Positions 19,771 through 35,876 of a stretch of 38,781 nucleotides of DNA are shown here, in pieces. The notes below the pieces were generated by a model. The model did no database searches and was not told where the DNA came from. It worked only from the letters and a program-made list of their open reading frames with translations. Positions within the stretch are counted from its first letter, which is position 1, and every line of letters starts with the position of its first letter. The position numbers and the translations under genes are program-made. Source of the DNA: Desulfobacula sp. (GTDB lineage Bacteria > Desulfobacterota > Desulfobacteria > Desulfobacterales > Desulfobacteraceae); contig JANQML010000001.1 of NCBI GenBank assembly GCA_028280105.1, positions 1 to 38,781 of the forward strand, written 5' to 3'.

Positions 19771-19786
19771 TTATAGAAGATAAAAA

Positions 19787-20418: not shown

Positions 20419-21026
20419 ATGAATCGAGGTGAGCGGGCAACAACCAGGACAAAATCGGTTATTAAACAATCTCTTTCCGAACTTTTTCATGAGAAAAATT
20501 ATCCAGACATAACTGTCAGTGATATTACAAAAAGGGCAAATATAGGTAGAAGTACGTTTTATAGACACTATAAATCAAAAGCTGAAGTCATGGTAGATTT
20601 TCACAAGGATATGTTCTCAAAGCTCTTCAGCGGGTTATCCATCGAAGAATTATGTCATAGGCCTGAACCACCAAAGGAGTTAGTCGATTTTTTTATAACG
20701 TATCAGCTTCTTGGTAGAAATCACTTTTCATTGATTTATAAATTAGGTAACGATTTAGACTATTTGATTACCAATATCAATCTGGCCCTTACGACAACGG
20801 TGAAGGAATGGCTTCAAAAATCTTATCGCGAAAAAAAAACTGTATTCCTTTAACGATTCTCGCTCAATCTATCGCTGCCTCATACAGCGGACTTTTAATG
20901 TCTTGGTTCTCAACATATCAATCTATAGATGCCAAAAGGTTTGCGATTTACATACATCGGCTTATCTGTTCAATGGTTCGAGAAGCAGGTTTGAAATCAA
21001 AGAATAATCCGTTGACTTATAGATAA
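20419..21026 (+). pseudogene. TetR-family regulator broken by a frameshift in an A9 tract
   Basis: The first reading frame (20419-20853) encodes a TetR helix-turn-helix (ANIGRSTFYRHYKSKAEVM) and part of the ligand domain, ending at residue 144. The second frame continues from about 20840 to 21026 with the expected C-terminal helices (ILAQSIAASYSGLLMSWFST, then AKRFAIYIHRLICSMV), a TetR_C-type ending. The change of frame falls at A9 (20831-20839); a -1 shift there restores one protein of about 200 residues. It may be a real mutation, a slippage-controlled switch, programmed -1 frameshifting or a sequencing error in the homopolymer. It faces the rhodanese gene across 221 bases and would be its natural regulator. 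Confidence 0.75.
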
Positions 21027-21121
21027 AAAAACGGTTAAGGAAGGGCGTTTCAAAAACGGTCAAATAGGGTAAGTGCTGCTTTCTGATTACTGTTCTCATT
21101 CTGGGAAAAGAACCTGTCCAA

Positions 21122-22564
21122 TTATTTGTTGATGTTATAATTTTTTAAAAGTTGATACAAACGAGCCTTTTTAAGACCCGAAATATCACACGCCTTTTTA
21201 ATGTCCCAGTTTATATTTGTCATTAACTCATTCAAATAGTTACTTTCCGCTTCGAAGATAACTTTCTTGCGATAATCTTTCAAACTCGTTAATGGCTCTA
21301 TTTTTATAGTACGGTTCGGGGGGTGTTCGGCATTGGGATACTCGCGACCGCTCTCCATTGACGCCATTGTTTTCACTCGGATATAATCCGGGAGATGCTT
21401 AGCAAACAGGGTTTGGCTGAAAGGATCGACTGCAACGGCAGTTTCTATTGAACTGACAAACTCACGAATATTTCCCGGCCAAGAGTATTTGGTCATCGTT
21501 TCAATAAAATCTGCCGATATCTTCTTATTCCTTAAGTTGTATTGCTGGCAAAATTTTTCAACATAGTGTCCAGCCAATTCTTCAATATCTTTTTGTCTTT
21601 CCCTTATTGGCGGCAGCTCTATAACGAAAGTTCTAAGCCGAAAAAGCAAGTCCTGACGAAAGCTTCCATCTGAAACAAGTTCATCAAGATCCCGGTGTGT
21701 TGCTGAAACCAATCTGAAATCACTTTTACTTTCCTTTTTACTGCCCACAGGTCTAAATTTTCTTTCCTGTAGAACCCTTAGAAGTTTTTTTTGAAGCTCG
21801 ATCGGTAACTCACCGACTTCATCTAGAAACAAAGTGCCCTGATCTGCCTGCTTGACCAACCCTTCATGAGATTTATCCGCACCGGTAAACGATCCCTTAG
21901 TATGTCCAAACAATATACTTTCTGCCAGCGAATCCGGTAAAGATGCGCAATCCACTACTATAAAAGGTTTTGCTTCACGGCTGCTGTTAAAATGTATCGC
22001 CCTGGCAAACAATTCCTTTCCTGTTCCGGTTTCACCGTAAATGATTACATTGGCATCGCTTTTTGCAGCATGCCCCATTAAGGAAATGCACATTAACAAC
22101 CGCGGGCTATCCCCTATGATACCTTTACGGTCAATTTCCAGCGGAGTTTTCAAGATCTGTTTTTGGCTGCGATACTCAAGCGCACGTGTTAATGACAACT
22201 CCAGTGTTTGCAAATCCGCCGGTTTTTGTAAATAGTCCCATGCCCCGCTTTTCAAGGCTAAATCTGCACCACCTTTTTCTCCATAGGCAGTAATAATTAT
22301 AATTTCAGGAGCAAACGGAATAGACTTTACCTTTGGAATAATATCGATACCATTCCCGTCAGGCAGACGGACATCGAGAAAAATCACATCATATTTGTTC
22401 GATTTAATTTTTGTAAGCCCGTCTTTCAATCTAAAAGCAGTGTCAGATTTAAAACCTGCCTCTTCAACCATCCGGGCAAGGGTATAAGACATACCTTCAT
22501 CATCATCGATAATTAGAACCCATGGGGTTTTGCCTTTATTAAATCTAAGTTGATTGTTTTTCAT
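21122..22564 (-). CDS. Sigma54-dependent response regulator (NtrC type)
   Basis: This enhancer-binding protein has 480 residues. An N-terminal receiver domain has the acidic pair near D20-D22, the phosphoacceptor D64 (FLDVRLPDG) and K114. The AAA+ domain follows with Walker A GETGTGKE (177-184), the sigma54-contact loop GSFTGA (224-229), Walker B TLFLDEVGEL (244-253) and the R-finger region. A C-terminal Fis-type helix-turn-helix (DIKKACDISGLKKARLYQLL) binds DNA. It should therefore activate sigma54 promoters. Its start ATG 22564 overlaps the hybrid kinase stop by 20 bases, so the two are a cognate pair. Likely targets are the GG-N10-GC promoters before tctC, acn and the binding-protein gene. 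Confidence 0.93.
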   Translation of the reverse strand: MKNNQLRFNKGKTPWVLIIDDDEGMSYTLARMVEEAGFKSDTAFRLKDGLTKIKSNKYDVIFLDVRLPDGNGIDIIPKVKSIPFAPEIIIITAYGEKGGADLALKSGAWDYLQKPADLQTLELSLTRALEYRSQKQILKTPLEIDRKGIIGDSPRLLMCISLMGHAAKSDANVIIYGETGTGKELFARAIHFNSSREAKPFIVVDCASLPDSLAESILFGHTKGSFTGADKSHEGLVKQADQGTLFLDEVGELPIELQKKLLRVLQERKFRPVGSKKESKSDFRLVSATHRDLDELVSDGSFRQDLLFRLRTFVIELPPIRERQKDIEELAGHYVEKFCQQYNLRNKKISADFIETMTKYSWPGNIREFVSSIETAVAVDPFSQTLFAKHLPDYIRVKTMASMESGREYPNAEHPPNRTIKIEPLTSLKDYRKKVIFEAESNYLNELMTNINWDIKKACDISGLKKARLYQLLKNYNINK

Positions 22565-25109
22565 CCAGCACCTTTCTAACGGCAAATGCTAATTCTGCAT
22601 GCATTAACGGTTTTTTTAGTACCTTATCAACGATTTCTGCATCGTTTATCGATTTTTCTTCCAATGGGTTATTATACCCTGTGAACAGAATGATCGGAAT
22701 CTCGGGATTCTTTTTCCTGATCTCTTTGGACAACGCAATACCTGTCATATCAGCCATCACCTGATCTGTTAAAACCAGGTCAAAATAATCGGGTCTCTCC
22801 TTAAAAGCTTTAGCAGCTTTAATACTGCCGGTAAAAGGCTCTACCTCATATCCGAGCCCCCTTAAGATTCGATCTAAAATATTAAGCAAGTTTTTTTCAT
22901 CGTCCACCAGAAGTATCTTCTCAGATCCCTGCGGTAGATCCAGATTTGATTCTACTTTAATCTTTATGTCTTCATGTTCAATTCGAGGCAGTAAAACAGA
23001 AAAGCAGGCACCTTGTCCTTCTTTGCTTTTAACATAAATAGCGCCTTCATGTTTTTTAACGATACCGTGCACCACAGACAACCCCAAACCCGTTCCTTCC
23101 CCCACGCCTTTGGTTGTAAAAAACGGGTCAAAAATTTTATGTTGAATTTTTGGGTTAATACCGGGTCCGTCGTCTTTTACGTCGATCCTGATATACGACC
23201 CTGGCTGGATATCGGGTCGTAATGGATTGTTCTCTTTAAATTTTTTTTCAGACAACACAACTTCAATAGTACCTCTTTTCTGGCCAATGGCCTGCGCCGC
23301 ATTGGTACACAAATTCATCAAAATCTGTTGCATTTGGATCGGATTGGCTAAAACAAAACCCGATTTTATTTTCTGCTGATATTCTATTTTAATATATTTT
23401 GAAAGCGTTGCCTGTAAAAATCTGATAACTTCTTTAACAAAAGGAGAAAGTGCCATGGGTGTTATCCGGGTCTCCTCTCTCCTGCTGAATGTAAGAATTT
23501 GATTCACCAATGATTTGGCCCGCAGTCCGGCAGTCAAAACCTGGTCTATATCCTGAACCGTTTTTTTATCACCCAAAACTCTTTTTTTAACCAGTTCGCC
23601 GCATCCGATAATTACGCCCAGGATATTATTAAAATCATGGGCAATACCGCCGGCCAGGGTGCCGATTGCCTCCATTTTCTGAGACTGTCTGAGCTGAGTT
23701 TCATATTTTGCTTTCAGTGTCACATCCCGTTTGATGGAAACATATCCGATAAATCTTTCCGATGGGCTCTTAATGGGAGATGCAATAATATCTTCAATGA
23801 GCAACATGCCATCTTTTTTTGACGATGAGATCCGGCCGGTCCAGACGTCACCTTTTTCAACCGTTGTCAGTATCTCATCATAAAGTGCTTTCTCAGATTC
23901 ATCTGTGCCGAGAAACCGGTGATATTTATTGTAGAGTTCATCCAGTTTATATCCCGTGTTTTTTTCGAACACCGGATTCACATACTTAATCCTGCTCTTA
24001 TCATCTGTAATGACTATGTGTTCGGCCACCTGTTCCACTGCTGTTGACAATCGGGTCAGTTCGTTTTGAACCTTTTTTCGTTTCGTAATATCCTGTACCA
24101 GGCCTTCGATATGCTTTAATTCCCCATTTGATTTATATATTGGAAGAGCATTCAGTGAGACCCAGATGATGGTACCGTCCCTCTTGCGAAATTGGACCTC
24201 ATAGGATTTTATCATCTCCTCATTTTTTAGCCGTTTAATATACGCTTCCCTCTGAGCCGGCACCACATAATGCTGAGATCCGATATCCACAACCTTGGTC
24301 ATCAACTCTTCAGGATCTTTATACCCAAGGATTTTAGCAAAAGCGGGGTTTGCATTAAGAATCCGGCCTTCTACAGTGGACTGGAAGATTCCTTCAATGG
24401 CATTTTCAAATATGCTTCTATATTTTTTCTCCGCCTTTTGTAATGCCCCCATTTGAAGGTTTATCTCATTTCCCATATCCTGCAGGGTATTAATCAAAGG
24501 GATAAACTCCGTATAAGGCATATCAACGGGATTGAATTCCCGGCTTTTTGAATTATATGTTTCCACAATATTGTTCAGCAGATTCAATGGCTTTTTCAAG
24601 GACCACCGTAATAAAATGCCTGACATGATAATTAAAGCGATAAAGTTGATCAGAATGATAAAACCAAAATAGAAAAAGAACTGCCGGTTCCATATATTGT
24701 AATAACCAGCAGATAGAGAAATCTCTACCGATCCGACATTTAGCCCGTGATGCGTCAACCTGGTGAATCGTTTGGTCCGGGGTATGGCGTCCCTTTTAAC
24801 TTCAGAGACGACTTTCTCTCCCCGCCCATTTATTATTTCAATACTGGCAATATCGTCATTTTGCAGATAGGATTGGCCGATAACTTCGATAGTTTCAAAA
24901 TCATAATTCCAGACGGGTAGGATTAATATCTCTTTAAGATATGAGATATATTCATCTGCTTTGGCATCCATGTGGGCTTTGGCTTTGGATTGAGCCATTT
25001 CATGGGCAAAGAAAAAAGAAGCTGTTGAGACCAATATCACGGTGATGATCAATCCAACCATCACCTCCTTGATAATGGACCTGTGAGAAGCTTTAAATAT
25101 ATTAATCAC
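22545..25109 (-). CDS. Hybrid sensor histidine kinase (periplasmic sensor, PAS-PAS, REC)
   Basis: 854 residues, in order: membrane helix (about 16-38), periplasmic sensor loop (39-143), second helix (144-167), a linker resembling HAMP, two PAS domains (about 228-345 and 351-470), a dimerisation helix with the phosphorylated H491 in GGIAHDFNNILG, the ATPase domain with N-box NLCTNAAQAI and G-boxes DDGPG and GTGLGL, and a C-terminal receiver (about 731-845) with D782. The start is GTG. It is the probable partner of the overlapping sigma54 response regulator. The small periplasmic domain fits sensing of a carboxylate or of a loaded binding protein, which is an inference. Confidence 0.92.
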   Translation of the reverse strand: MINIFKASHRSIIKEVMVGLIITVILVSTASFFFAHEMAQSKAKAHMDAKADEYISYLKEILILPVWNYDFETIEVIGQSYLQNDDIASIEIINGRGEKVVSEVKRDAIPRTKRFTRLTHHGLNVGSVEISLSAGYYNIWNRQFFFYFGFIILINFIALIIMSGILLRWSLKKPLNLLNNIVETYNSKSREFNPVDMPYTEFIPLINTLQDMGNEINLQMGALQKAEKKYRSIFENAIEGIFQSTVEGRILNANPAFAKILGYKDPEELMTKVVDIGSQHYVVPAQREAYIKRLKNEEMIKSYEVQFRKRDGTIIWVSLNALPIYKSNGELKHIEGLVQDITKRKKVQNELTRLSTAVEQVAEHIVITDDKSRIKYVNPVFEKNTGYKLDELYNKYHRFLGTDESEKALYDEILTTVEKGDVWTGRISSSKKDGMLLIEDIIASPIKSPSERFIGYVSIKRDVTLKAKYETQLRQSQKMEAIGTLAGGIAHDFNNILGVIIGCGELVKKRVLGDKKTVQDIDQVLTAGLRAKSLVNQILTFSRREETRITPMALSPFVKEVIRFLQATLSKYIKIEYQQKIKSGFVLANPIQMQQILMNLCTNAAQAIGQKRGTIEVVLSEKKFKENNPLRPDIQPGSYIRIDVKDDGPGINPKIQHKIFDPFFTTKGVGEGTGLGLSVVHGIVKKHEGAIYVKSKEGQGACFSVLLPRIEHEDIKIKVESNLDLPQGSEKILLVDDEKNLLNILDRILRGLGYEVEPFTGSIKAAKAFKERPDYFDLVLTDQVMADMTGIALSKEIRKKNPEIPIILFTGYNNPLEEKSINDAEIVDKVLKKPLMHAELAFAVRKVLDEKQST

Positions 25110-25142
25110 CCGTGAATTGAATTCCTTTTCATTATAGAGCCG

Positions 25143-25685
25143 TTATAGACTGGATTGTCCCATTTGATATCCCAGTTCCAATGATTTTTTGTTCATCTCC
25201 ATAAAATCCTTTGGGATGGTCGTTTCCAGCACCTTCATAATCGAATCCGGTTCGATTAAACCGGTGATCCCTAACAATGTTCCCAACATACAGATATTAA
25301 AGACAATGGGTTTGCCGATCTGATCCATGACGGTTTCATACATGGGCAGACTGATATGTTTGGCAGCCACCTTCTTTTCCGTGTTTACATATCTGGCGTC
25401 TACCAGAAGCAAACCGCCGGGCCTTATGATCGACGAAAACTTATTATACGCATCTTGAGTCAGACTGACCAGAATATTGGGCTGAATCACTTTGGGAAAA
25501 TTGATTTCACCATCATCAATGATCACATCACTCCTCGTAGCACCACCTCGGGCTGCTGCACCATAACTTTGAGACTGGATGGCATGTTTGTCCTCAAACA
25601 GGGCTGCGGCTTTGGCTAAGATAATGGCTGCAGTGATCACACCCTGGCCGCCGGAACCGGAAAATACAATACGGGAACGTTCCAT
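25143..25685 (-). CDS. korC: 2-oxoglutarate:ferredoxin oxidoreductase gamma subunit
   Basis: 180 residues matching the gamma subunit family of 2-oxoacid:ferredoxin oxidoreductases: N-terminal FSGSGGQGVITAAIILAKAA followed by QSYGAAARGGATRSDVII. Together with KorA, KorB and KorD it converts 2-oxoglutarate plus CoA to succinyl-CoA with ferredoxin reduction. Its ATG overlaps the korB stop by one base. The substrate is inferred from the aconitase and isocitrate dehydrogenase nearby; related enzymes act on branched-chain 2-oxoacids. Confidence 0.88.
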   Translation of the reverse strand: MERSRIVFSGSGGQGVITAAIILAKAAALFEDKHAIQSQSYGAAARGGATRSDVIIDDGEINFPKVIQPNILVSLTQDAYNKFSSIIRPGGLLLVDARYVNTEKKVAAKHISLPMYETVMDQIGKPIVFNICMLGTLLGITGLIEPDSIMKVLETTIPKDFMEMNKKSLELGYQMGQSSL

Positions 25686-26506
25686 TATCTGCCTCCTTTG
25701 GCCTGGGCTTTTTCAATGACCTCATCGTATGCTTCGCAATATTCGGGGACATCAGTGTTTTCTACAAAAACACCCCTCTGGATGAGATCCGGGTTTTCCT
25801 CCAGCTTTTTAGAACCGATTTTTACCGTGTTGGTTTTATAAGCCTCCATCATTTGAACAGCATCCCCTTCTCTGTTTTTACGTCCATAGTAGGTCGGACA
25901 CTGACTTAAAATTTCCACTACCGAAAAACCTTTGTGCATGATGGCTTTTTTAAAATAGTTTTTTGCTTCATTGGCATGGTATACAGTGGTTCGGGCGACA
26001 AATGTGGCACCGGAACTCTTGGCCAGGTCCGCAATATCAAACTCCCGGTCAATGGTGGAATAAGGGGCGGTAGTTGCTTTCTTATTACAACCTGACAATG
26101 GAGAAAATTGGCCGCCGGTCATGCCGTAAATCCGGTTGTTCATCACTATTGCAGTGATGTCGATATTTCTTCTGGCGGCATGGATAAAGTGGTTGCCGCC
26201 GATTGCCAAAGCGTCTCCGTCGCCCATGGCGACCAGGGTTTTGAGATCCGGCTTGGATAATTTTACACCTGTGGCAAAGGTAAGAGCCCGACCGTGAATG
26301 GTATGCAAAGAGTGAAAATCCACATAGCCGGATATCCGGGAAGAACACCCGATACCTGAAGCCATGACAATCTCATTTTTGGACAGTTCAAGCTCATGGA
26401 TCGCTCTCAGCAGGGAGCCTAACACGACACCATGGCCACAACCCGGGCACCAGAGATGAGGAAAAAAGCGGGCTCTGATATAATCCTTAAAGTCAAATTT
26501 TTTCAT
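25685..26506 (-). CDS. korB: 2-oxoglutarate:ferredoxin oxidoreductase beta subunit
   Basis: 273 residues carrying the thiamine-diphosphate site. CPGCGHG near C20 and C23 opens the protein, followed by GIGCSSRISGY. The cofactor and metal motif VAMGDGDALAIGGNH is followed by NNRIYGMTGGQ. This is the catalytic beta subunit of the Kor-type enzyme. The gene lies between korA (one base gap) and korC (one-base overlap), so the four subunits are translated as a unit. Confidence 0.9.
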   Translation of the reverse strand: MKKFDFKDYIRARFFPHLWCPGCGHGVVLGSLLRAIHELELSKNEIVMASGIGCSSRISGYVDFHSLHTIHGRALTFATGVKLSKPDLKTLVAMGDGDALAIGGNHFIHAARRNIDITAIVMNNRIYGMTGGQFSPLSGCNKKATTAPYSTIDREFDIADLAKSSGATFVARTTVYHANEAKNYFKKAIMHKGFSVVEILSQCPTYYGRKNREGDAVQMMEAYKTNTVKIGSKKLEENPDLIQRGVFVENTDVPEYCEAYDEVIEKAQAKGGR

Positions 26507-26507
26507 C

Positions 26508-27659
26508 TTACACCCCCTTTCCCTGGATTATTCGAAGTACGCTTTTAATGTCTTCCGGAGAGAGCAGTTCACCATCGATCCGGTTTGCCAAGAATACTTT
26601 TTCCGGTTGATCTAAGGCGTTTTTAACCTGTGACAGCACCTGGCCCATATTCATTTCCACTACGATCACCGCTTTTGCACCCGCGCATTTCTCCCGGATC
26701 AATCCACTTGGAAACGGCCAAAGCGTCTGCAATTCAAGCACACCGATTTTAAGGCCCTTTTCTCTTTTTTCCTTTGCCATGTGAATGGCAGACCGGGCTG
26801 ACGAACCGTAGGAAATCAGCATGAATTCCGCATCATCCATGAAGTATTCTTTATGCCGGTTAATGGCATTGACGTTATTTTCTATCTTGTCCACCAGATG
26901 TCTTAACAATCCTTTGACAACCTTTGGGTTGTTATTGGGAAACCCCCACATGTCATGAAAAAGTCCTGTAACATTATATCGGTGTTCCGCACCAAAATCA
27001 GACATGGGCAGTCTTCCGTCTTCCCGGGGCAGGTAGGGGTGGTAATCCACACCTTTGGGAACAGAGGTTCTCAACCGGTCAACCACTGGAATTTCTCCAT
27101 GATCAGGGATAACCAGTCTTTCCCGCATATGCCCCACAACTTCATCCAGCAGGATGATGACAGGCGTTCGATAGGTTTCTGCCAGGTTAAAAGCTTCAAC
27201 CGTGATCTCAAAGACATCCTGATGGTTGGAGGCTGTCATCACGACAATGGCATGATCACCATGTGTGCCCCACCGTGTCTGGTTCACATCCCCCTGACTG
27301 ACATGGGTCGGGTTTCCCGTAGATGGGCCGCCTCTTTGCACATTGGCAATAACGCATGGAATCTCTGCCATGCAGGCATATCCCAAGGCTTCCTGTTTTA
27401 AAGAAAATCCAGGGCCGGATGTAGCGGTCATCACCTTGTGTCCGGTTAAGGACGCACCGATGATAGCACCCATAGAGGCGATTTCATCTTCCATTTGGAT
27501 GAACTTGCCACCGTTTTCCGGCAATCTGGATGAGAGCGCTTCTGCAATTTCTGTCGACGGTGTGATGGGATAGCCTGCGAAAAACTCCAGCCCGGCATAC
27601 ATGGCCCCTTCCATGCAGGCTTCGTTTCCCTGCACAAATTTAATATGATTGTTTTTCAT
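26508..27659 (-). CDS. korA: 2-oxoglutarate:ferredoxin oxidoreductase alpha subunit
   Basis: 383 residues of the OFOR alpha subunit. Its start includes GNEACMEGAMYAGLEFFAGY and PITPSTEIAEAL, and later ATSGPGFSLKQEALG and RGGPSTGNPTHVSQGD. It binds the diphosphate and forms the CoA side of the enzyme. It overlaps korD by 20 bases and abuts korB. The domain set is complete and of usual length. Confidence 0.9.
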   Translation of the reverse strand: MKNNHIKFVQGNEACMEGAMYAGLEFFAGYPITPSTEIAEALSSRLPENGGKFIQMEDEIASMGAIIGASLTGHKVMTATSGPGFSLKQEALGYACMAEIPCVIANVQRGGPSTGNPTHVSQGDVNQTRWGTHGDHAIVVMTASNHQDVFEITVEAFNLAETYRTPVIILLDEVVGHMRERLVIPDHGEIPVVDRLRTSVPKGVDYHPYLPREDGRLPMSDFGAEHRYNVTGLFHDMWGFPNNNPKVVKGLLRHLVDKIENNVNAINRHKEYFMDDAEFMLISYGSSARSAIHMAKEKREKGLKIGVLELQTLWPFPSGLIREKCAGAKAVIVVEMNMGQVLSQVKNALDQPEKVFLANRIDGELLSPEDIKSVLRIIQGKGV

Positions 27660-27873
27660 GTTCCTTTTCCTGTTCAGTTTCGATTTGGATCGCTAAATCC
27701 GGGCACCGGATTTCGCACAATTTACAGGCAATACAATCTTCAGACCTTGCAGCTTCAACTTTGCACTGCCGGTTCAGTTTCAGTACATCCCTGGTGCAAA
27801 AGTGGACACAGATCCCGCATCCTTTGCACCACTCCTGATCAATTACATGTTGAATAACATCATTTTTTTTCAT
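27640..27873 (-). CDS. korD: Ferredoxin-type delta subunit of the Kor enzyme
   Basis: 77 residues with two CX2CX2CX3C-type iron-sulfur motifs: WCKGCGICVHFCTRD and CIACKLCEIRCPD. This bicluster ferredoxin passes electrons from the Kor enzyme to the soluble ferredoxin pool. Start ATG 27873 is six bases after AAGAG; an in-frame upstream extension is unlikely. It is the first gene of the kor block and overlaps korA. Confidence 0.9.
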   Translation of the reverse strand: MKKNDVIQHVIDQEWCKGCGICVHFCTRDVLKLNRQCKVEAARSEDCIACKLCEIRCPDLAIQIETEQEKEHEKQSY

Positions 27874-27986
27874 GTTCATCTCTTGTAATGGTGCTGATTT
27901 TACAATCAACAAGTTAATTTTTATTGTTTGACATCCGGCTGACAGCTCAAATCAGTTGAAATCTGAACTGGTTATCCAAATAGACC

Positions 27987-28018
27987 AGGGAGCTGATCTA
28001 AACTATTTCCAGCTCCCT
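27987..28018 (-). terminator. Hairpin between tctA and korD
   Basis: AGGGAGCTG (27987-27995) pairs with CAGCTCCCT (28010-28018) around a 14-base loop, 40 bases past the tctA stop. There is no T-run, so it is more likely an mRNA processing or partial-termination structure that sets the ratio of transporter to kor transcript than a strong terminator. Confidence 0.5.
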
Positions 28019-28057
28019 ATCCATTATTCTGCTGCAGAAAAAAATTTGATTTAGTCT

Positions 28058-29608
28058 TCAGATACCTTCCGTTTTTGTGACTTGAGTACCACTATTTTCA
28101 GACTTTTCTCTCATCCTCTTTTTGATATAACTGATAATATACGGTGCAATGATGCTGGCAAAGGTTATAATCCACAACCCGATGGTAATGGGAGAACTGT
28201 AAAAGGTTGAATAGTCTCCATAGCTGTAGGTCAAAGCGCGTCTGAAATTCACTTCAATCAGGTTGCCCAGTACTAACCCCAGAATAAGGGGGGCCAAGGG
28301 GAAACCTGTTTTTCGCATGATAAACCCGACAACGCCAAATATCAGCATTAACACCAGATCAAATTCGCTGCCATTGATGACATACACGCCAACGATACTC
28401 AATACAGCGACCAACGGCATCAGTATCCAGCGCGGCACCAGTAAAATTTTTGCAAGAAGTCTGACCAACGGCAGGTTCAGGAATATCAAAACCAGGTTGC
28501 CGACAAACATGGAAGCGGCTACCCCCCAAAACATATCCGGTTGATCTGTCAACATGGTCGGACCAGGCGTGACACCCAGAGTGATGAGTGCTGCCAGCAT
28601 CACAGCCGTTGTTTCACTCCCCGGCACACCAAGTACCATCAGAGGAATAAACGATCCCACAGCCGAGGAGTTATTGGCTGATTCAGGTGCGGCCACACCC
28701 CGTAAATCCCCTTTGCCAAATTTCCCTTCTGAACCGGCCATTTTCTTTTCAGTGTTGTAAGCCAGGAAACTTGCAATGGTGGCTCCGGCACCCGGCAGCA
28801 CACCCACAACAAATCCGGTCACACATGACCGGAGGATGCCCGCAATGGCGTCTTTTATCTCTTTGAGTGTAAGAAACACCCGGTTCAGAGGGACAATGGT
28901 CTGTTTCGCATTACTAGCGGATTCAGACAGAAAGAGAAAAAGTTCTCCCACTGCAAAAACACCGATGACAACTACGATAAAATCAATGCCGTCCGCCAAT
29001 TCTCCAATGCCGAAAGTGAATCTGCGCATCCCGCCAAAACTAAGTTCATCAATTCCCACAGTGGCAATGGCCAGTCCCAGAAGGGCACTGAACATCGCTT
29101 TAAGAATACTGCCCTGGGAAAAGCTGGTCAAAGCGGTAAACGCACAAACCATGAGAACAAAATATTCGGATGGACCAAAATCAATGGCCAGCTTGGATAA
29201 ATACGGTGCAAAGATAACCAGTAAAAAAATAGACAGGGTGCCGCCTGAGAAGGATGCCACTGCACTCATTGCCAGGGCAGGACCGGCTTTACCCTGTTTA
29301 GCCAGAGGATTACCGTCAATACAGGTCACAGCAGAGGAAGAAGTACCGGGAACATTTAAAAGAATACTCGAGATGGAGTTACCATATTGTGAGCCGTAAA
29401 AAATCCCGGCAAAAAAGATTAACGCCGAAGAGGCTGGTAACTCAAACTGAAGCACAATAGGAAAAAGAATCGCAATGGCATTTATAGGGCCAATGCCCGG
29501 CAGCATTCCGATGACTGTTCCTAAAAAACAACCGATAACCACCAGCATAAGGTTTGTTCCAGTTAATGCAACGGAAAAACCTTGTAATAATAGATCAAAC
29601 ATATTCAC
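28058..29608 (-). CDS. tctA: Tripartite tricarboxylate transporter, large subunit TctA
   Basis: 516 residues, a large polytopic protein of the TctA family with the signature GMLPGIGPINAIAILFPI, the segment FYGSQYGNSISSILLNVPGT and the second-half GVLPGAGATIASFLAYNTEK. It is the transport channel of the TctABC system, which imports tricarboxylates such as citrate in a sodium- or proton-coupled manner with a periplasmic binding protein. It follows tctB by a 9-base gap. Length is normal. Confidence 0.93.
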   Translation of the reverse strand: MNMFDLLLQGFSVALTGTNLMLVVIGCFLGTVIGMLPGIGPINAIAILFPIVLQFELPASSALIFFAGIFYGSQYGNSISSILLNVPGTSSSAVTCIDGNPLAKQGKAGPALAMSAVASFSGGTLSIFLLVIFAPYLSKLAIDFGPSEYFVLMVCAFTALTSFSQGSILKAMFSALLGLAIATVGIDELSFGGMRRFTFGIGELADGIDFIVVVIGVFAVGELFLFLSESASNAKQTIVPLNRVFLTLKEIKDAIAGILRSCVTGFVVGVLPGAGATIASFLAYNTEKKMAGSEGKFGKGDLRGVAAPESANNSSAVGSFIPLMVLGVPGSETTAVMLAALITLGVTPGPTMLTDQPDMFWGVAASMFVGNLVLIFLNLPLVRLLAKILLVPRWILMPLVAVLSIVGVYVINGSEFDLVLMLIFGVVGFIMRKTGFPLAPLILGLVLGNLIEVNFRRALTYSYGDYSTFYSSPITIGLWIITFASIIAPYIISYIKKRMREKSENSGTQVTKTEGI

Positions 29609-29617
29609 CTGATTCGA

Positions 29618-30058
29618 TTAAAAAAAGTTTAATATTCCGGCTGGAAGGTTCAAACCCAGTAAACGGTCAAAAACCACAAAAAAAGTGATCGCGACTATTA
29701 TAGACACCGGTATGATAAATTTTCGCTTTGCATTAAAAACCCACATGCATATACCCATCAGAACACTGGCACAGATTAAAAATCCAACCTTATGCAGCAC
29801 CAGGCTGTAAATTAGGATGGTGCATATTGTAATCCCTATCTTCTGCAGGCTCTTTAAGTCTGGCCAGGTTACTTTATGCTTTGTGGGCCATATCATGAGT
29901 GCGATTGAAAGCAGTACCATGCATACACCCAAGGCAAAGGAGTAAAATTTTTCATGTGTCGGGTCAAAATCTGCATCCAGATTGTAGGCCGATATGCTGT
30001 AGATCACGCTCATCAGCAGCATGATCAATGCATATTTTCTGTCTTCTGTTATATTCAT
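29618..30058 (-). CDS. tctB: Tripartite tricarboxylate transporter, small subunit TctB
   Basis: 146 residues with four membrane segments in the TctB layout (hydrophobic at about 10-25, 40-55, 78-105 and 110-138). The sequence is weakly conserved in this family; identity rests on its position between tctC and tctA and on topology. It anchors the complex in the inner membrane. Confidence 0.82.
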   Translation of the reverse strand: MNITEDRKYALIMLLMSVIYSISAYNLDADFDPTHEKFYSFALGVCMVLLSIALMIWPTKHKVTWPDLKSLQKIGITICTILIYSLVLHKVGFLICASVLMGICMWVFNAKRKFIIPVSIIVAITFFVVFDRLLGLNLPAGILNFF

Positions 30059-30066
30059 GGCATCAT

Positions 30067-31059
30067 TTATTTAATAATATTCAGTTCCCTGGAAATAGTG
30101 GCAACATTCTCAATCTGATTTCTGACAAAAGCATCGAAATCTTTACCAAATGAAGTGAACTCAGCCAGACCGTTTTTTTCTCTGATTTCGGTCCACTCTG
30201 GCGACATGGCAACAGCTTTTACGGCAGACACCCAGTAATTATAGGCGTCATCTGATATCCCGGCAGGAGCGTAGAATGCGCGCCAGTTTCCGCCAATAAC
30301 ATCATAGCCCTGTTCTTTGGCCGTCTTTGCATCACCCAGTGCGGGAATTTTGTCTTCAGAAAGAACGGCTAAAATACGCACCTTACCGGCTTGGAACTGG
30401 CCGATTATTTCCGAAGCATCTCCTGTGAATGCCGCTGCCCGGCCACCGATTACTTCCAGCATGGCTTTCCCGCCATTATCAAAGGGAATATAATTGATAC
30501 TTCTTAAATTTTTAACACCAGCTTCTTTGGCCACCAACAGCGCCTTTATATGATCCCACCCACCTACAGAACTTGCACCGACAATAGGTGTTTTTTTAGG
30601 ATTGCTTTTGAGCTGGGCGACCAGATCATCCAAGGTTTTATATGGAGAGTCTTTACCGACAACAATTACGCCGTAATCCATACCCAATGCGCCAACCCAT
30701 CTGACATCATCGGCTTTGTAGTCGCCAAACACTTTCTGAGCCAACCGGGTGGCTGTGGCTGCACTGGCAGCTACGATAAGATTTTCATCGTTGTTTCTTG
30801 TGTTAACAACATGAGAAAACGCTTTTCCTCCACCGGATCCCGACATGTTTACAACCTTCATGGAGCCGTCAATAAGATCCAGTTTCTGCATCATCTGAGC
30901 AGCCGGAACGCGACAGGTGAAATCCCATCCGCCGCCGGCACCTGCCGGTGCAAGACATTCACAACCTGATGGCTTTTTAACATCAGCTGACGCAGGTGAA
31001 ATTACGATTAAACCAATAAAACCAACAACCAGTAATAATAAAACAAATACTTTCCTCAT
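30067..31059 (-). CDS. tctC: Tripartite tricarboxylate transporter, binding protein TctC
   Basis: This 330-residue exported binding protein (Bug/TctC family) has a signal peptide (MRKVFVLLLLVVGFIGLIV, cleavage near SPASA) and an early APAGAGGGWDFTCR loop that normally contacts a carboxylate ligand. I use ATG 31059, preceded by GGAGATTATC; an upstream in-frame extension to 31173 has no signal-peptide logic. It is the first gene of the tctCBA operon. A sigma54-type promoter and three activator-like sites lie upstream. The ligand is probably citrate or another tricarboxylate from the neighbouring aconitase and icd, which is an inference. Confidence 0.9.
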   Translation of the reverse strand: MRKVFVLLLLVVGFIGLIVISPASADVKKPSGCECLAPAGAGGGWDFTCRVPAAQMMQKLDLIDGSMKVVNMSGSGGGKAFSHVVNTRNNDENLIVAASAATATRLAQKVFGDYKADDVRWVGALGMDYGVIVVGKDSPYKTLDDLVAQLKSNPKKTPIVGASSVGGWDHIKALLVAKEAGVKNLRSINYIPFDNGGKAMLEVIGGRAAAFTGDASEIIGQFQAGKVRILAVLSEDKIPALGDAKTAKEQGYDVIGGNWRAFYAPAGISDDAYNYWVSAVKAVAMSPEWTEIREKNGLAEFTSFGKDFDAFVRNQIENVATISRELNIIK

Positions 31060-31186
31060 GATAATCTCCATTTTTAAAAGGTAAAAATAATTGCCATGGA
31101 TTTTGATTTTGTTGAGACACCCTCCGCAGCAATAAGCTAATAATCCATGTCGGTCATAATTCCGGCCGGTCATAATCGCGAATAAT

Positions 31187-31203
31187 TGCGAATAGTATGC
31201 CAG
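31187..31203 (-). promoter_or_regulatory. Sigma54-type promoter of tctC
   Basis: On the minus strand CTGGCATACTATTCGCA matches the -24/-12 consensus with GG and GC exactly ten bases apart. It would start transcription near 31175, about 116 bases before the tctC start. Three dyad sites 106-165 bases upstream of the -24 box fit an activator-bound enhancer, and the NtrC-type regulator in this gene set fits. Confidence 0.65.
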
Positions 31204-31308
31204 GAAAATGGGATGAACGCTTTAAATCCTCAAAGTCTTTATCCATGAATGATTTAATGAATAGTTGACGATCTTATTTAAAGACCGGAAAGGTGAATGA
31301 CAGATCAA

Positions 31309-31367
31309 TTCTGATTTTATCAGAAAAAACTCTAATAAAATCAGAAAATAATCTAACTTTATCAGAA
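31309..31367 (-). promoter_or_regulatory. Three 17-bp dyad sites 21 bp apart (activator enhancer)
   Basis: Sites start at 31309 (TTCTGATTTTATCAGAA), 31330 (CTCTAATAAAATCAGAA) and 31351 (ATCTAACTTTATCAGAA). Starts are exactly 21 bases apart, two helical turns, so all lie on one face of DNA. The first is a perfect dyad; the others keep the ATCAGAA half. They lie 106-165 bases upstream of the -24 box of the tctC sigma54 promoter, in the usual enhancer range. Confidence 0.68.
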
Positions 31368-31378
31368 AACCGGATAAG

Positions 31379-31423
31379 AAAAGGGCAGCGTCCGGCTGGA
31401 TCAGATGCTGCCCTTTTTGTTTA
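31379..31423 (-). terminator. Intrinsic terminator after icd
   Basis: AAAAGGGCAGC (31379-31389) pairs perfectly with GCTGCCCTTTT (31407-31417) around a 17-base loop. On the minus strand the stem ends in TTTTCTT, on the plus strand in TTTTGTTT, so it can work in both directions. It separates the acn-icd operon from the tct regulatory region. Confidence 0.75.
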
Positions 31424-31448
31424 AACCTCAACGTTGCAACGATGAGGT
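31424..31448. repeat. 25-bp intergenic repeat, copy B
   Basis: Identical over 25 bases to 19746-19770, with the CGTTGCAACG palindrome and CCTCA/TGAGG outer pair. It lies between the icd stop and the terminator hairpin. See copy A for the shared gene-end position. Confidence 0.75.
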
Positions 31449-31477
31449 AAAATTCAGTATTGCTCTTATGCGAAATG

Positions 31478-32680
31478 CTATTGCGAAAGCTGATCAGCGA
31501 CCTTTTCAAGAAATTGAACAGAGTCCAGAATTTCAACAGCTTCTTCGTCGCAGATGGCTGCCAGGTCACCGGTCATGAAACCGGATTCAATGGTTTCAAC
31601 AACGCTTTTCTCCAACCGGTCTGAAAACGTTACAAGGTCGGAGATCCCGTCAAGTTCTCCCCGTTTTCTCAACGCACCGGACCAGGCAAATATTAAAGCA
31701 ACAGCATTGGTTGACGTTTTCTCACCTTTCAAATGTTTATAATAGTGCCGCTGCACTGTGCCATGGGCTGCTTCATACTCAAAATAGCCATGCGGTGAAA
31801 CCAGAACCGAAGACATCATGGCCAGAGAACCAAAGGCGGAAGCCACCATATCACTCATTACATCTCCATCATAATTTTTACACGCCCAGAGCATTCCTCC
31901 CTTAGTTTTCATCATACGGGCCACCACATCATCGATCAGGGTGTAAAAAAACGCTATGCCGGCTGCTTCAAATTTATCCCTGTATTCATTTTCAAAAATA
32001 TCTTCAAAAATGAGTTTAAATGTCTGGTCGTATTTTTTTGATATGGTGTCTTTGGTGGCAAACCAGCAGTCTACCTTTTCATCCAGGGCATATTCAAAAC
32101 AGGCCGTTGCAAAGCTCCGGATGGATTCATCCGTATTATGCATGCCTTGCAAAATACCCGGACCATCGAGTTCCATGATGGTTTCACGAATCTCTTTACC
32201 CTCGTTATCCGTAAATATGATCTCGGCTTTACCCCCTGTTTCGGTTCTAATTTCTGCATTTTTATAAACATCCCCATAGGCATGTCTCCCGACAATAATG
32301 GGCTTGCTCCAGGATTTGATCATTGGTTTGATATTATTAACCAGAATGGGTTTTCGAAATACGGTACCGTCCAGCATGGCTCGGATGGTTCCGTTTGGGC
32401 TTTTCCACTGCTGCTTCAGACTATATTCTTCCACTCTTTCCCGGTTGGGTGTGATCGTCGCATTTTTAACCCCAACCCTGTATCTTTTGATTGCATTGGC
32501 CGCATCAATAGTTACCTGGTCATCTGTTTCATCCCGATGTTTGATCCCCAGATCATAATATTCGGTTTTCAATTCTATAAAGGGCTGAATCAATTTTTCT
32601 TTAATCAATGGCCAGAGTACACGGGTCATTTCGTCCCCATCCAGTTCCACCAGCGGTGTTAACATTTTAATTTTAGACAT
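31478..32680 (-). CDS. icd: NADP-dependent isocitrate dehydrogenase, eukaryote-like
   Basis: About 400 residues of the homodimeric type II isocitrate dehydrogenase similar to mitochondrial/cytosolic eukaryotic IDH rather than E. coli Icd. Signatures are [20 protein letters not shown] at the start, [20 protein letters not shown] and [20 protein letters not shown], and late [20 protein letters not shown]. It oxidises isocitrate to 2-oxoglutarate, which the nearby Kor enzyme can use. ATG 32680 follows GGAGA by six bases. It is downstream of acn with a 51-base gap, forming an acn-icd operon. Confidence 0.93.
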
Positions 32681-32731
32681 GTTTTTCTCCAATTGCTAGT
32701 AAGAACTTATCGTTTGTTTTTACGTCGAAAT

Positions 32732-34660
32732 TTATACCTGTGTTTTGATCCAGGGCAGCTTTCCACCTGCCTTTAAAATTTGAGCATCCAGTTTGGAAAG
32801 GGAGTGCCGGAGTTGATATTCTTTTTTCCGAGTCAGGTTTTTCAGGCAGATCTGTGAATCCGTTAAATCGTTAATTACTAGAATCATCTGATCGCCCATC
32901 TGGATATCTTCGTATTCCGCTTTGTCGGCAAAGGTCATGGGAACGATTCCAAAATTAATTAAATTGGCCAGATGGATCCGGGCAAAGGATTTAACAATAA
33001 CCGCTTTGACCCCCAGATATTTGGGAGCAAGAGCAGCATGCTCACGGCTAGATCCCTGGCCGTAATTCTCACCGCCGATTATAAACCCACCCCCTTTTTC
33101 CGATGCGCGGTTGCTAAAATCCGGATCTACCATTTCAAACACAAATTTTGAAATTTCAGGAATATTACTGCGAAATGGAAGTATTTTGGCACCTGCCGGC
33201 ATGATATGATCAGTTGTAATATCGTTTTCGACTTTTAGGATGACCTCTCCTTCAAGGGTGTCTGGTAAGGGCGGAAAATCTGGCAAAGGTGCGATATTCG
33301 GTCCCCTGATAATTTCAATCTGCTCAGCTGTTTCCGGTTCCAGGGGCGGGATGATCATATTGGTGTTGACCCTGAATGTTTCAGGCAACTGAATTTTCGG
33401 GTAAGGCATAACCAATTGCCTCGGATCAGTCAGTTTTCCTGTCAATGCAGTGGCAGCGGCTGTCTCTGGGCTGACCAGATAAACATCGGCATCTTTCGTG
33501 CCACTTCTCCCTTTAAAGTTCCGGTTGTAAGTTCTGACGGAAACGGCCTTGCTTGATGGTGCCGCACCCATGCCTATGCAAGCGCCACACGCATTTTCCA
33601 GGATCCGAGCGCCGGCATTGACCAGTTTTCCAAAAGAGCCAGACTCGATTAGATGATCCACCACCTGTCGTGAACCCGGATTAACAGTCAAATGAAGATC
33701 CGGAGAAACGGTCCGGCCGTCCAGAATTCGGGCCGACACTTCCAGATCTTTTAAAGATGAGTTTGTACAACTTCCGATTCCGACCTGCTGAACCGGTAAA
33801 TCTGATAATTCTCGAACCGGTTTAACCTTTCCTGGACTGTGAGGGCAGGCAGCCAAGGGTTCGAGTTCTGCCAAATCAATCTCTATCACTTTATCATATT
33901 CCACCCCCTGATCCGGAAATAACTCTTTGAAATTATTTTCACGGCCCTGGGATTTCATAAAAGACCGGGTCACATTATCACTTGGAAAAATCGAAGTGGT
34001 GGCACCGGTTTCTGTTCCCATATTTGTAATCGTGGCTCGTTCCGGCACGGAAAGGGTATCCACACCGTCGCCAAAGTATTCCAGAACATAGCCGACTCCC
34101 CCTTTAACATCGATCTGTCTTAAAACCTCCAGAATAATATCCTTGGCCGAAACCCAGTCCTGAAGTTCATTGGTCAGGCGGATACCCATAATTTTAGGAT
34201 ATTTTATCCTGAATGGCATCCCTGCCATGGCTGCTGCGACATCAAGACCACCGGCACCCATGGCCATGGCTCCGACTCCGCCGGCGGTCGGAGTATGACT
34301 GTCCGATCCGATCAGCGTTGTCCCTGGAATCACAAAGTTTTCCACATGGAGTTGATGACAGATTCCATTCCCCGGCCTTGAAAAATAGATTCCGTATTTC
34401 TGAGCAATCGATTGTAAAAACCGATGGTCATCTGCGTTTTTAAAATCAGATTGCAAGGTATTATGATCTACGTAACTAACACTTAAATCTGTCTTGACTC
34501 GGGGAACACCTATGGCTTCAAACTGTAAATATGCCATGGTCCCGGTTGCATCCTGAGTCAGTGTCTGGTCTATTTTAAGCGCGATCTCTTTGCCAGGAAT
34601 TTTCTTTCCATCCAGATAATGGGCATCAATGATCTTTTGGGTAAGACTTTTAGCAATCAT
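32732..34660 (-). CDS. acn: Aconitate hydratase
   Basis: 642 residues of iron-sulfur aconitase, which isomerises citrate to isocitrate. The cluster cysteines are C298 (GIGSCTNSS), C358 and C361 (ENACGACIGMG). The small C-terminal domain has GGENYGQGSSREHAALAPKYLGVKAVI. Length fits the shorter (about 640-residue) anaerobe-type aconitase rather than the 900-residue AcnA. Start ATG 34660 is seven bases after GGAGAG. A sigma54-type promoter at 34751-34767 lies about 90 bases upstream. With icd downstream it forms the citrate to 2-oxoglutarate part of the pathway. Confidence 0.93.
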   Translation of the reverse strand: MIAKSLTQKIIDAHYLDGKKIPGKEIALKIDQTLTQDATGTMAYLQFEAIGVPRVKTDLSVSYVDHNTLQSDFKNADDHRFLQSIAQKYGIYFSRPGNGICHQLHVENFVIPGTTLIGSDSHTPTAGGVGAMAMGAGGLDVAAAMAGMPFRIKYPKIMGIRLTNELQDWVSAKDIILEVLRQIDVKGGVGYVLEYFGDGVDTLSVPERATITNMGTETGATTSIFPSDNVTRSFMKSQGRENNFKELFPDQGVEYDKVIEIDLAELEPLAACPHSPGKVKPVRELSDLPVQQVGIGSCTNSSLKDLEVSARILDGRTVSPDLHLTVNPGSRQVVDHLIESGSFGKLVNAGARILENACGACIGMGAAPSSKAVSVRTYNRNFKGRSGTKDADVYLVSPETAAATALTGKLTDPRQLVMPYPKIQLPETFRVNTNMIIPPLEPETAEQIEIIRGPNIAPLPDFPPLPDTLEGEVILKVENDITTDHIMPAGAKILPFRSNIPEISKFVFEMVDPDFSNRASEKGGGFIIGGENYGQGSSREHAALAPKYLGVKAVIVKSFARIHLANLINFGIVPMTFADKAEYEDIQMGDQMILVINDLTDSQICLKNLTRKKEYQLRHSLSKLDAQILKAGGKLPWIKTQV

Positions 34661-34750
34661 CTTGAACTCTCCAATTTTAGCATTTACTTTTCCGGTCATA
34701 CTTTTTCCCAGAGCTATCCCAAAACGCTCAAGGGAATTGATTGAAAGTTT

Positions 34751-34767
34751 AGCAATTAGCATACCAG
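34751..34767 (-). promoter_or_regulatory. Sigma54-type promoter of acn
   Basis: On the minus strand CTGGTATGCTAATTGCT carries GG and GC exactly ten bases apart and an intact TTGCT -12 element. A transcript from about 34741 leaves an 80-base leader before acn. It is the mirror partner of the plus-strand promoter at 34809. Confidence 0.68.
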
Positions 34768-34775
34768 CCGGTTTA

Positions 34776-34792
34776 TTCTGATATTATTGGAA
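34776..34792. promoter_or_regulatory. Activator-site-like dyad between divergent sigma54 promoters
   Basis: TTCTGATATTATTGGAA agrees with the best tctC enhancer site at 14 of 17 positions. It lies between the acn and binding-protein promoters, 9 bases from the acn -24 region and about 17 from the other, which is closer than is usual for such activators. Confidence 0.45.
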
Positions 34793-34808
34793 AATTTTCT
34801 TCTAAACA

Positions 34809-34825
34809 CCGGCATGTAAGTTGCA
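34809..34825 (+). promoter_or_regulatory. Sigma54-type promoter of the binding-protein gene
   Basis: CCGGCATGTAAGTTGCA has GG and GC exactly ten bases apart and a complete TTGCA -12 element. It points at the binding-protein gene starting at 34920, giving a leader of about 85 bases. Only the second base (C for T) and two spacer-side positions depart from consensus. Confidence 0.65.
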
Positions 34826-34919
34826 ATATTACGCTTTAAAATTGTATAAGACCGATTCTTTTGATACTAATTCTGTAAGCGAGATAAATACCGATTGCTA
34901 TATAGATATGAGGAAGTTT

Positions 34920-35876
34920 ATGTTACGCGTAAAAATCCTACCCATTTTTATACTGGTATTAACTATAATAAATCCTTATGCACGTGCACAGACATATAGA
35001 GTTGCCATATTTGATTATGATGACCGGATTAACCATGAACAATCAACGGCAAAATATATTGAAAAGCAATTAAAGAAGATTCAATTAAAAATTATAATCG
35101 ATCAATATTCAGGCAAAAAAGATCTGGCAACTGCTATAAACGTCCTTCAAAAATTAGAAAACGAAAACTATGACTTAGTGATCACCATCACCTCAGATGC
35201 TTTGATTATAGCGCATCACATCTTGAGTAAAACCCCGACTCTTTTTACAAATGTAAATAATCCTTTATTCCTTGGCTTCAAACATCTTGGGCCTCCAGCC
35301 GGTAACATTTCGGGCGTTTCATATTATATAAGTGTAGAAAAGCAGATAAGATTCTATAAATTGATACTGCCCAATTTAAAAAATATTGGATTTATTTTCG
35401 ATCGAAAAAACAAGTCAAAAAGAGTGGAGTTACCAGAGGCAAGACTCGTGTGCAGCGCTATGGATATTGACCATAAAATTGAAGTCATAACTCAGGTAAA
35501 TGAATTGCATAATGCCGCTAACAGACTCATAGAGGCCGGTGTTCAGGCTCTGGTCATAGGTTCCTCAGACCTGCTTTACAACAATATTTCCAAATTTATT
35601 GATCAATGTAACACCGAACAAATTCCGGTATTCTCCTTTAATAAAAAGGGGGTTCAAAATGGTGCTGTGGCAGCTCTATCAAGCGATTATAATTTGATGG
35701 TTGATGAACTGTTGATTCCCATGTCGGTTTCGGTGCTAAAAAAAGAAAAAACTCCGGGACAAATTCCAATCGGATTTTTAAAGAGAAACAGCGTATTTAT
35801 CAATCAATCTCAAACAGAACTATTGGACTTGACCATTCCGACTGATATCCTTAGTCAAGCCATGCTGATTCCATAA
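34920..35876 (+). CDS. Periplasmic ABC-type substrate-binding-like protein
   Basis: About 318 residues with a signal peptide (MLRVKILPIFILVLTIINPY, cleavage near ARA|QTY) and the two-lobed periplasmic-binding fold typical of the ABC_sub_bind (PF04392) family: YRVAIFDYDD, YDLVITITSDALIIAHH, TPTLFTNVNNPLF, and late GVQALVIGSSDLLYNN. No ABC permease or ATPase is adjacent, so it may act as a sensor or chaperone for the hybrid kinase rather than in transport. Start ATG 34920 has AGGA five bases upstream; farther in-frame ATGs lie outside the signal peptide. It is divergent from acn and has its own sigma54-type promoter. Confidence 0.75.
   Translation: MLRVKILPIFILVLTIINPYARAQTYRVAIFDYDDRINHEQSTAKYIEKQLKKIQLKIIIDQYSGKKDLATAINVLQKLENENYDLVITITSDALIIAHHILSKTPTLFTNVNNPLFLGFKHLGPPAGNISGVSYYISVEKQIRFYKLILPNLKNIGFIFDRKNKSKRVELPEARLVCSAMDIDHKIEVITQVNELHNAANRLIEAGVQALVIGSSDLLYNNISKFIDQCNTEQIPVFSFNKKGVQNGAVAALSSDYNLMVDELLIPMSVSVLKKEKTPGQIPIGFLKRNSVFINQSQTELLDLTIPTDILSQAMLIP

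Follow-up and report, generated by a model that had tools for sequence, protein, structure and literature searches.

The window analysed here is a 38,781-nucleotide stretch of a Desulfobacula sp. genome (contig JANQML010000001.1; C111 of a 5.93-Mb assembly with 6.5% contamination), and its positions 21122–35876 carry a compact island. This comprises a tripartite tricarboxylate transporter (TTT; tctCBA), aconitase (acn), isocitrate dehydrogenase (icd), a 2-oxoacid:ferredoxin oxidoreductase (korDABC), a hybrid histidine kinase, an NtrC-type response regulator and a divergent gene for a PF04392 binding protein. Judged from sequence, it is probably an inducible, sigma54-switched island for the breakdown of citrate or a closely related tricarboxylate, driven by its kinase and regulator. 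Predicted control by the regulator is well supported for tctCBA and, from the promoters, plausible for acn–icd; for kor we infer it from operon structure only. The strongest evidence is a tandem array of palindromes upstream of tctC, which was absent from the preliminary description of this DNA; the citrate gene set named there is borne out by profile matches.

We scored sigma54 sites with a hand-set weighting of the consensus TGGCACG-N4-TTGCW across the whole window on both strands, and used 1,000 dinucleotide-preserving shuffles of the same upstream regions, on the coding strand, as a control. Three sites fit the sigma54 pattern GG-N10-GC in this context. The predicted regulatory sites are as follows.

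31187..31202, minus strand: sigma54 −24/−12 promoter of tctC, TGGCATACTATTCGCA, implied start about 31176; counterparts in G078, G262 and G295, none in G246
31310..31324: candidate operator (upstream activating sequence) copy 1, proximal, a perfect palindrome by sequence pattern, TCTGATTTTATCAGA
31331..31345: candidate operator copy 2 by sequence pattern, TCTAATAAAATCAGA, 21 bp from copy 1
31352..31366: candidate operator copy 3 by sequence pattern, TCTAACTTTATCAGA, 21 bp from copy 2
34751..34766, minus strand: sigma54 promoter of acn–icd, TGGTATGCTAATTGCT, implied start about 34741; G078 counterpart TGGTACGTTATTTGCT
34777..34791: single operator-like site between the two divergent promoters, TCTGATATTATTGGA, fourth-best matrix site in the window and outside the training set
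34810..34825, plus strand: sigma54 promoter of the binding-protein gene, CGGCATGTAAGTTGCA, implied start about 34836

The scan, which was unguided, ranked the binding-protein site first (34810, plus strand), the acn site third (34766, minus strand) and the tctC site ninth, tied with the eighth (31202, minus strand); 0, 1 and 14 of the 1,000 shuffles, respectively, scored as well. GG-N10-GC promoters had previously been placed at these same three positions, and the start coordinates given then (31175, 34741 and 34836) agree with those predicted here by arithmetic from the promoters. Eight loci contained 55 sites scoring at least 17.5, a rate of 0.17 per kb of strand. Comparable sigma54-like sites also lie inside genes elsewhere in the window, and the case therefore rests on position and conservation. 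The genome carries an rpoN-type gene (PF00309).

Upstream of tctC, three 15-bp palindromes are spaced at 21 bp, or two helical turns, and so lie on the same helix face, the nearest centred 116 bp 5' of the −24 element. The relaxed single-copy pattern TCTRAYNNNATCAGA gave five exact strand-hits at four places in the genome, three of which are the tctC copies; with up to one mismatch it gave 120 strand-hits versus 20 for the reversed control, a count that is inflated because the pattern is near-palindromic, so that single sites mean little. When the tandem pattern was searched with up to three mismatches, only the tctC place was found, versus one reversed-control hit. Across the five genomes that carry this tctC, hits away from tctC were limited to one in G078 (three mismatches) and one in G246 (two), with two in total for the control. 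Among 389 sampled genomes of the order, exact tandem matches were present in four (G000, which is the window's own genome, G078, G262 and G295), every one 5' of tctC, and a rough base-composition estimate predicts about 0.017 such matches over the whole sample. With up to one mismatch, hits were obtained in eight of the 389, and the reversed pattern gave none in the same rows of results. We attribute the one-mismatch hits in G091, G103, G238 and G144 to chance: they lie inside frames of 241–938 residues, with no tct gene in the 3 kb read.

We next compared the promoters and regulators of the genomes carrying this tctC (81–83% identical), which number five of 389, own included; this is a small sample, and G246 and G262 belong to one genus. 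A phylum sample of 395 genomes, partly the same, added two tctC matches at 49–50%. The tctC promoter is found in four of the five genomes (TGGCATACTATTCGCA, TGGCACACAATTCGCT, TGGCACGCTATTCGCT and TGGCACACTTCTCGCG), sharing TGGCA and a variant −12 box that reads TCGC; 14, 25, 1 and 38 per 1,000 shuffles, respectively, matched these scores. The G246 tctC is 83% identical, and upstream of it there is no operator and no good sigma54 site (best score 15.3, equalled by 263 of 1,000 shuffles). G246 also yielded no regulator match at E ≤ 1e-120, which is weak evidence, as this genome is 81% complete and has its tctC close to the end of a contig. Operator and regulator thus agree in all five genomes, G246 having neither, and their co-occurrence extends across families. 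From the proximal operator copy to the promoter the distances are 116, 119, 118 and 222 bp (11.05, 11.33, 11.24 and 21.14 turns at 10.5 bp), which keeps the helix face to within 0.3 turn across the four islands; the 222 bp of G295 is measured from a degenerate copy with three mismatches, the next copy lying at 243 bp (23.14 turns). IHF-like sites with up to one mismatch were absent 5' of tctC in the window, G078 and G262; G295 has an exact one between operator and promoter and a one-mismatch site over the operator, and G246 has a single one-mismatch site.

The genes of the island are listed below.

21122..22585, minus strand: NtrC-type response regulator with a receiver (REC), a sigma54-interaction AAA+ domain with a GSFTGA loop and a C-terminal Fis-like helix-turn-helix (Pfam/NCBIfam, alignment)
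22545..25109, minus strand: membrane hybrid histidine kinase, two PAS domains and a C-terminal receiver (Pfam)
25143..25685, minus strand: korC, gamma subunit of 2-oxoacid:ferredoxin oxidoreductase (Pfam/NCBIfam)
25685..26506, minus strand: korB, beta subunit (Pfam/NCBIfam)
26508..27659, minus strand: korA, alpha subunit (Pfam/NCBIfam)
27640..27912, minus strand: korD, ferredoxin-like delta subunit (Pfam/NCBIfam)
28058..29608, minus strand: tctA, large membrane subunit of the transporter (Pfam)
29618..30058, minus strand: tctB, small membrane subunit (Pfam)
30067..31059, minus strand: tctC, periplasmic binding subunit (Pfam; likely start codon 31059)
31379..31417: GC-rich hairpin with a short T-run after it on either strand, likely acn–icd terminator (inverted repeat)
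31478..32692, minus strand: icd, NADP-dependent isocitrate dehydrogenase, eukaryote-like type (Pfam/NCBIfam)
32732..34660, minus strand: acn, short-type aconitate hydratase (profile match; likely start 34660)
34920..35876, plus strand: PF04392 periplasmic binding protein, proposed kinase co-receptor, no adjacent transporter genes

The regulator (487 residues) matched PF00072, PF00158 and PF25601. Pfam gave no helix-turn-helix match, and this domain was assigned by C-terminal alignment and by NorR, LuxO and NtrX models that extend to the protein end. Citrate systems of the BctDE/TctDE type use a short OmpR-like regulator; with its length and its AAA+ sigma54 domain, the island's regulator is not of that kind. 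It is matched at 72% in G078, 73% in G262 and 57% in G295, and the C-terminal helix region is similar across the four proteins and unlike that of two paralogs. Among 85 other genomes of the family, the best match was that of G078 and the next reached 50%. Matches at 47–50% in G012, G017, G059 and on contig C377 of the same genome were rejected, with no tct or acn alongside in the DNA read. As outgroups we used 11 tctCBA loci, made up of nine annotated from 80 loci and two phylum relatives (L089, outside those nine, is the same DNA as L086 of G246). None had an NtrC-length regulator alongside in the DNA read; nine had a frame of 223–259 residues that matched the receiver only, and in L097 and L104 none matched. 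Within the sample annotated, the four islands alone have the NtrC-type pair.

The kinase has the domain order PAS-PAS-HisKA-HATPase-REC, and its periplasmic sensor region of about 110 residues gave no Pfam match and only chance-level results in a PDB search (best E 0.028). Its gene lacks a dedicated sigma54 promoter in the window as well as in G078 and G295 (313, 743 and 579 of 1,000 shuffles scored as well). The G262 kinase does have one (6 of 1,000): a strong −24/−12 site, TGGCATATTGTTTGCG, lies directly 5' of the gene (L087:11545) and suggests autoregulation in that genome. The PF04392 protein is present in four of four islands with no directly adjoining ABC genes, and we propose it as a candidate co-receptor of the kinase; a qualification is that G078 encodes an ABC-type SBP_bac_5 protein 1.4 kb from the PF04392 gene and has a permease fragment at the contig end.

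Profile scores identify most of the metabolic genes. The three TTT subunits are adjacent and each exceeds its cut-off (PF01970, PF07331 and PF03401), and the same holds for aconitase (PRK07229, 962 bits versus a cut-off of 612), NADP-dependent Icd (PRK08299, 647 versus 335) and KorA in the generic 2-oxoacid:acceptor alpha model (527 versus 411). The oxidoreductase has the four-subunit alpha-beta-gamma-delta layout. Its 2-oxoglutarate-specific models fall below cut-off (KorA NF007206, 381 versus 579; KorB NF007207, 292 versus 364; gamma and delta likewise), so 2-oxoglutarate as its presumed substrate rests on gene context. On the minus strand the order is acn–icd, the hairpin, tctCBA, korDABC, kinase and regulator, with the PF04392 gene diverging from acn. 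Overlaps of korD with korA, korB with korC and kinase with regulator, and a spacing of 33 bp between kor and kinase, make korDABC–kinase–regulator look like a single operon. The hairpin was absent from the matches of our terminator scan, which allows loops of 3–8 only. No terminator was recognised in the gap between tctA and korD. That gap holds a long-loop stem without a T-run on the minus strand (27990–28030), which might tune the kor part of the transcript. The open reading frame list had put the starts of tctC and acn at 31173 and 34762, overrunning the promoters; the likely starts are 31059 and 34660, the latter by alignment with the G078 acn.

The related islands keep the switch and vary in their enzymes. 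In G078, the binding-protein gene diverges from acn (77%), which is followed by tctCBA–kinase–regulator. G262 has tctCBA and, after 647 bp, a 413-residue PF00180 Icd, a 914-residue aconitase and korABC, with a divergent binding protein–kinase–regulator set; this aconitase and Icd are of other subfamilies than those of the window, within the same Pfam families. G295 has tctCBA, the binding-protein gene, a 406-residue Icd and korA near a contig end, and another of its contigs opens with korC–kinase–regulator; the two are not joined, and the order suggests that of the window. No aconitase was seen in G295. That the islands keep these steps with other aconitase and Icd subfamilies is our best argument for citrate degradation as the probable function.

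We then considered the acn side of the island. The acn promoter is kept in G078 (TGGTACGTTATTTGCT, 0 of 1,000 shuffles), and G295 has an icd promoter, TGGCTCTCAAATTGCT (4 of 1,000). With a matrix trained on nine operator copies from four genomes plus their reverse complements, the site at 34777 scores 15.2 bits, and the next-best window site, inside acn, 10.8 bits. The distance from 34777 to the acn −24 element is about 19 bp, which places the site near −43 relative to acn and near −52 relative to the binding-protein gene; the arrangement is reminiscent of the 'governor' sites of low affinity that NtrC has at glnA. In G295, a weaker match (13.4 bits, 4741) lies 151 bp 5' of the icd promoter, within the binding-protein frame. 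Either the tctC enhancer, acting over 2–3.4 kb, or another activator would serve acn.

Taken together, these features suggest the following model. A periplasmic signal, probably citrate, would reach the kinase directly or by way of the PF04392 protein or TctC, and from the domains and gene linkage the activated hybrid kinase would phosphorylate the regulator. Bound to the three palindromes, on one helix face about 116 bp upstream, the regulator would drive sigma54 polymerase at tctC; we infer this action because promoter and operator are conserved and co-occur. Less certainly, it would also drive the sigma54 promoters of acn–icd and the binding-protein gene, with the one operator-like site between them. 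Read-through from tctCBA into korDABC, kinase and regulator would close a positive feedback loop. Imported citrate would be converted to succinyl-CoA by three enzymes in turn, aconitase, isocitrate dehydrogenase and the presumed 2-oxoglutarate:ferredoxin oxidoreductase, with NADPH and reduced ferredoxin also being formed.

Several observations weigh against this model. The korD gene has no comparable sigma54 site in the window (615 of 1,000 shuffles) and no operator, and expression of kor would need read-through across the 145-bp gap that separates it from tctA. The binding-protein promoter is found in one of four islands (962, 680 and 672 of 1,000 shuffles in the other three), and no sigma54 site was seen in the 300 bp scanned for the icd–acn group of G262 (429 of 1,000). 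The site at 34777 is nearer to its promoters than a usual enhancer, and the G078 acn has no local operator (best 5.2 bits). In the regulators, GAFTGA is present in G078 and G262, and the GSFTGA of the window and GAFTSA of G295 depart from it; the G295 protein (L201:3437–4960) has its GAFTSA loop although operator and promoter are kept. The 18.2-kb G078 contig, which ends 268 bp past the regulator, holds no icd or kor. Finally, the best solved relatives of TctC are distant, and citrate as the substrate comes from context. The proposal that one signal system sets import and every downstream step is partly supported: well for tctCBA, by promoter, operator and regulator co-occurrence, and plausibly for acn–icd by promoters; for kor, which lacks its own site, it depends on operon structure, and the binding-protein promoter is found in one of four islands.

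We weighed three other explanations. It is unlikely that control by the regulator stops at tctCBA and the genes reached from it by read-through, with the acn–icd and binding-protein promoters answering to another enhancer-binding protein or to none and co-location reflecting metabolic clustering. The tandem operator is indeed found in the four islands at tctC only, the G078 acn has a strong promoter and no operator, and the genome has five further NtrC-type regulators at E ≤ 1e-80 (18 scored of 231 candidates). Yet only three sites in the 38.8 kb outscore the operator-like one at 34777, which sits precisely in the acn/binding-protein gap, and in each of the two islands with this acn type, tctCBA and the regulator are present too. 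We judge it similarly improbable that a tri- or dicarboxylate other than citrate is imported (cis- or trans-aconitate, isocitrate, tricarballylate or 2-oxoglutarate). TTT binding proteins vary in ligand according to the excerpted text of a review (PMC5812351), and a second island in the same genome has tcuAB for tricarballylate; but the genes identified in the island under study include no tcuAB or prpF, the same review names citrate uptake as the role most often identified for TTT systems that have been characterised (PMC5812351), and aconitase, Icd and Kor represent three steps from citrate that are kept in islands with other enzyme subfamilies.

Very improbable, in our assessment, is a mainly biosynthetic or housekeeping role, with promoters that would belong to general control of nitrogen or carbon and not to a citrate switch. 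Kor-type enzymes are reversible, and the only other PF00180-family frame in the genome resembles leuB by eye, both of which fit such a role. Against it stand the physical union with tctCBA and the kinase, the patchy presence (TctC in 5 of 389 genomes) and the other copies of each enzymatic step. An 891-residue aconitase-family frame lies on C369 and a second short-type acn on C43; korA pieces, 84–94% identical, are found on C43, C123 and C330, all at contig ends, that on C330 next to a pair of genes whose domains are of the succinyl-CoA-synthetase type (PF02629/PF00549 and PF08442/PF00549). A monomeric isocitrate dehydrogenase on C43 rules out the island icd as the sole such enzyme. Read as the housekeeping cycle, the control of tricarboxylic acid (TCA) steps that the preliminary description proposed is rejected in view of these copies: the island is peripheral and separate from the housekeeping TCA cycle.

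Contig C43 (1–19295; L074 and L203) holds the second tricarboxylate island, of tricarballylate/citrate type, with tcuA, tcuB, tctA, acn and, at the contig end, the start of korD–korA, as well as a prpF-like gene, the monomeric isocitrate dehydrogenase, citrate-lyase-type alpha, beta and acyl carrier protein genes and a PrpD-family gene. A −24/−12-like site, TGGCACAACTTGTGCA, lies upstream of prpF, and a putative binding-protein gene (L074:4860–5999) gave no Pfam match. Like the island in the window, it combines a sigma54 activator with neighbouring genes for a tricarboxylate transporter, aconitase and Kor. That activator is of the one-component kind, resembling PrpR/PrdR below their cut-offs, and TctA (30%), aconitase (54%) and the Icd family differ.

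Base composition and flanking genes were also noted. G+C is 0.36–0.47 over the island genes, 0.51 farther left (1–17638) and 0.55 on the right, and the 3.5 kb directly left of the island (17639–21121) is also low, at 0.41; the corresponding values for island and surroundings are 0.52 versus 0.59 in G262 and 0.525 versus 0.534 in G078. Low G+C and patchy presence suggest that the island may have been passed between lineages. Adjoining the left end, three TetR-type genes, an NrfD-like membrane protein and a rhodanese lie within 4 kb (17021–20853), and the right flank holds a molybdopterin oxidoreductase with G+C above the island's (35927–38233). Farther left, G+C drops to 0.376 between stretches of 0.52 (8001–10000), with frames of 388 and 156 residues. 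An Rfam search of the window gave zero matches.

DctB–DctD pairs an NtrC-type regulator and tandem upstream sites with a C4-dicarboxylate transporter of another family, and its regulon is not known to include TCA enzymes. The BctDE, TctD and CitAB regulators are OmpR- or CitB-type and are not known to depend on sigma54. The present island, with an NtrC-type regulator, sigma54 promoters and enzyme genes included, is unlike these Bct, Tct and Cit systems. It resembles BctCBA/BctDE of Bordetella pertussis, TctCBA/TctD of Salmonella and CitAB–tctCBA of C. glutamicum in combining a TTT citrate transporter with a linked regulator, and in Bordetella the binding protein is also part of the signalling (PMC5812351). 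The excerpted TTT review describes two-component control of tctCBA, and the word 'sigma' is absent from that text (PMC5812351). The closest sigma54 precedent that we found, going by an excerpt, is MifS–MifR of Pseudomonas aeruginosa, a two-component system for 2-oxoglutarate uptake that needs RpoN (PMC4482717). In mifSR mutants, expression of idh, icd, sucA, sucB and lpd3 was unchanged, so that transport alone was affected (PMC4482717); unlike MifSR, the present island has promoters suggesting that some enzymes are under the same control. The partial text of the Desulfovibrio vulgaris sigma54 regulome ties many sigma54 regulators to catabolic operons and has no 'tricarboxylate', 'aconitase' or 'TCA cycle' (PMC4641369), and that of a 2025 sigma54 survey has no 'tricarboxylate', 'citrate', 'tctC' or 'aconitate' (PMC12316311). 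In Desulfobacteraceae, most regulators found next to gene clusters for pathways are reported to be activators of the single-component sort, with sigma54-dependent ones as an example (PMC11887813); the two-component version is therefore a variant of a common theme. Among the matches listed from the open-licence literature, none described sigma54 control of tctCBA with acn or icd.

We regard the island as a new regulon that is open to testing, and not as a system of a new kind. Its predicted operator is specific enough to mark a single place in the genome and is paired with its regulator, and the same switch and transporter joined to different enzyme subfamilies provide a natural test case. A bolder version of the model, in which the tctC tandem enhancer serves all island promoters, reaching acn over about 2 kb in G078 to 3.4 kb in the window (with 34777 as a helper site), and the orphan PF04392 protein rather than TctC reports citrate, seems to us rather doubtful. 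If true, it would describe a portable sigma54 module of import plus TCA steps, with a constant DNA switch and with aconitase and Icd exchanged for non-orthologous enzymes. For relatives of sulfate reducers, the island offers a direct test case of sigma54 coupling between uptake and TCA-cycle steps, and of whether an orphan binding protein acts as the sensor.

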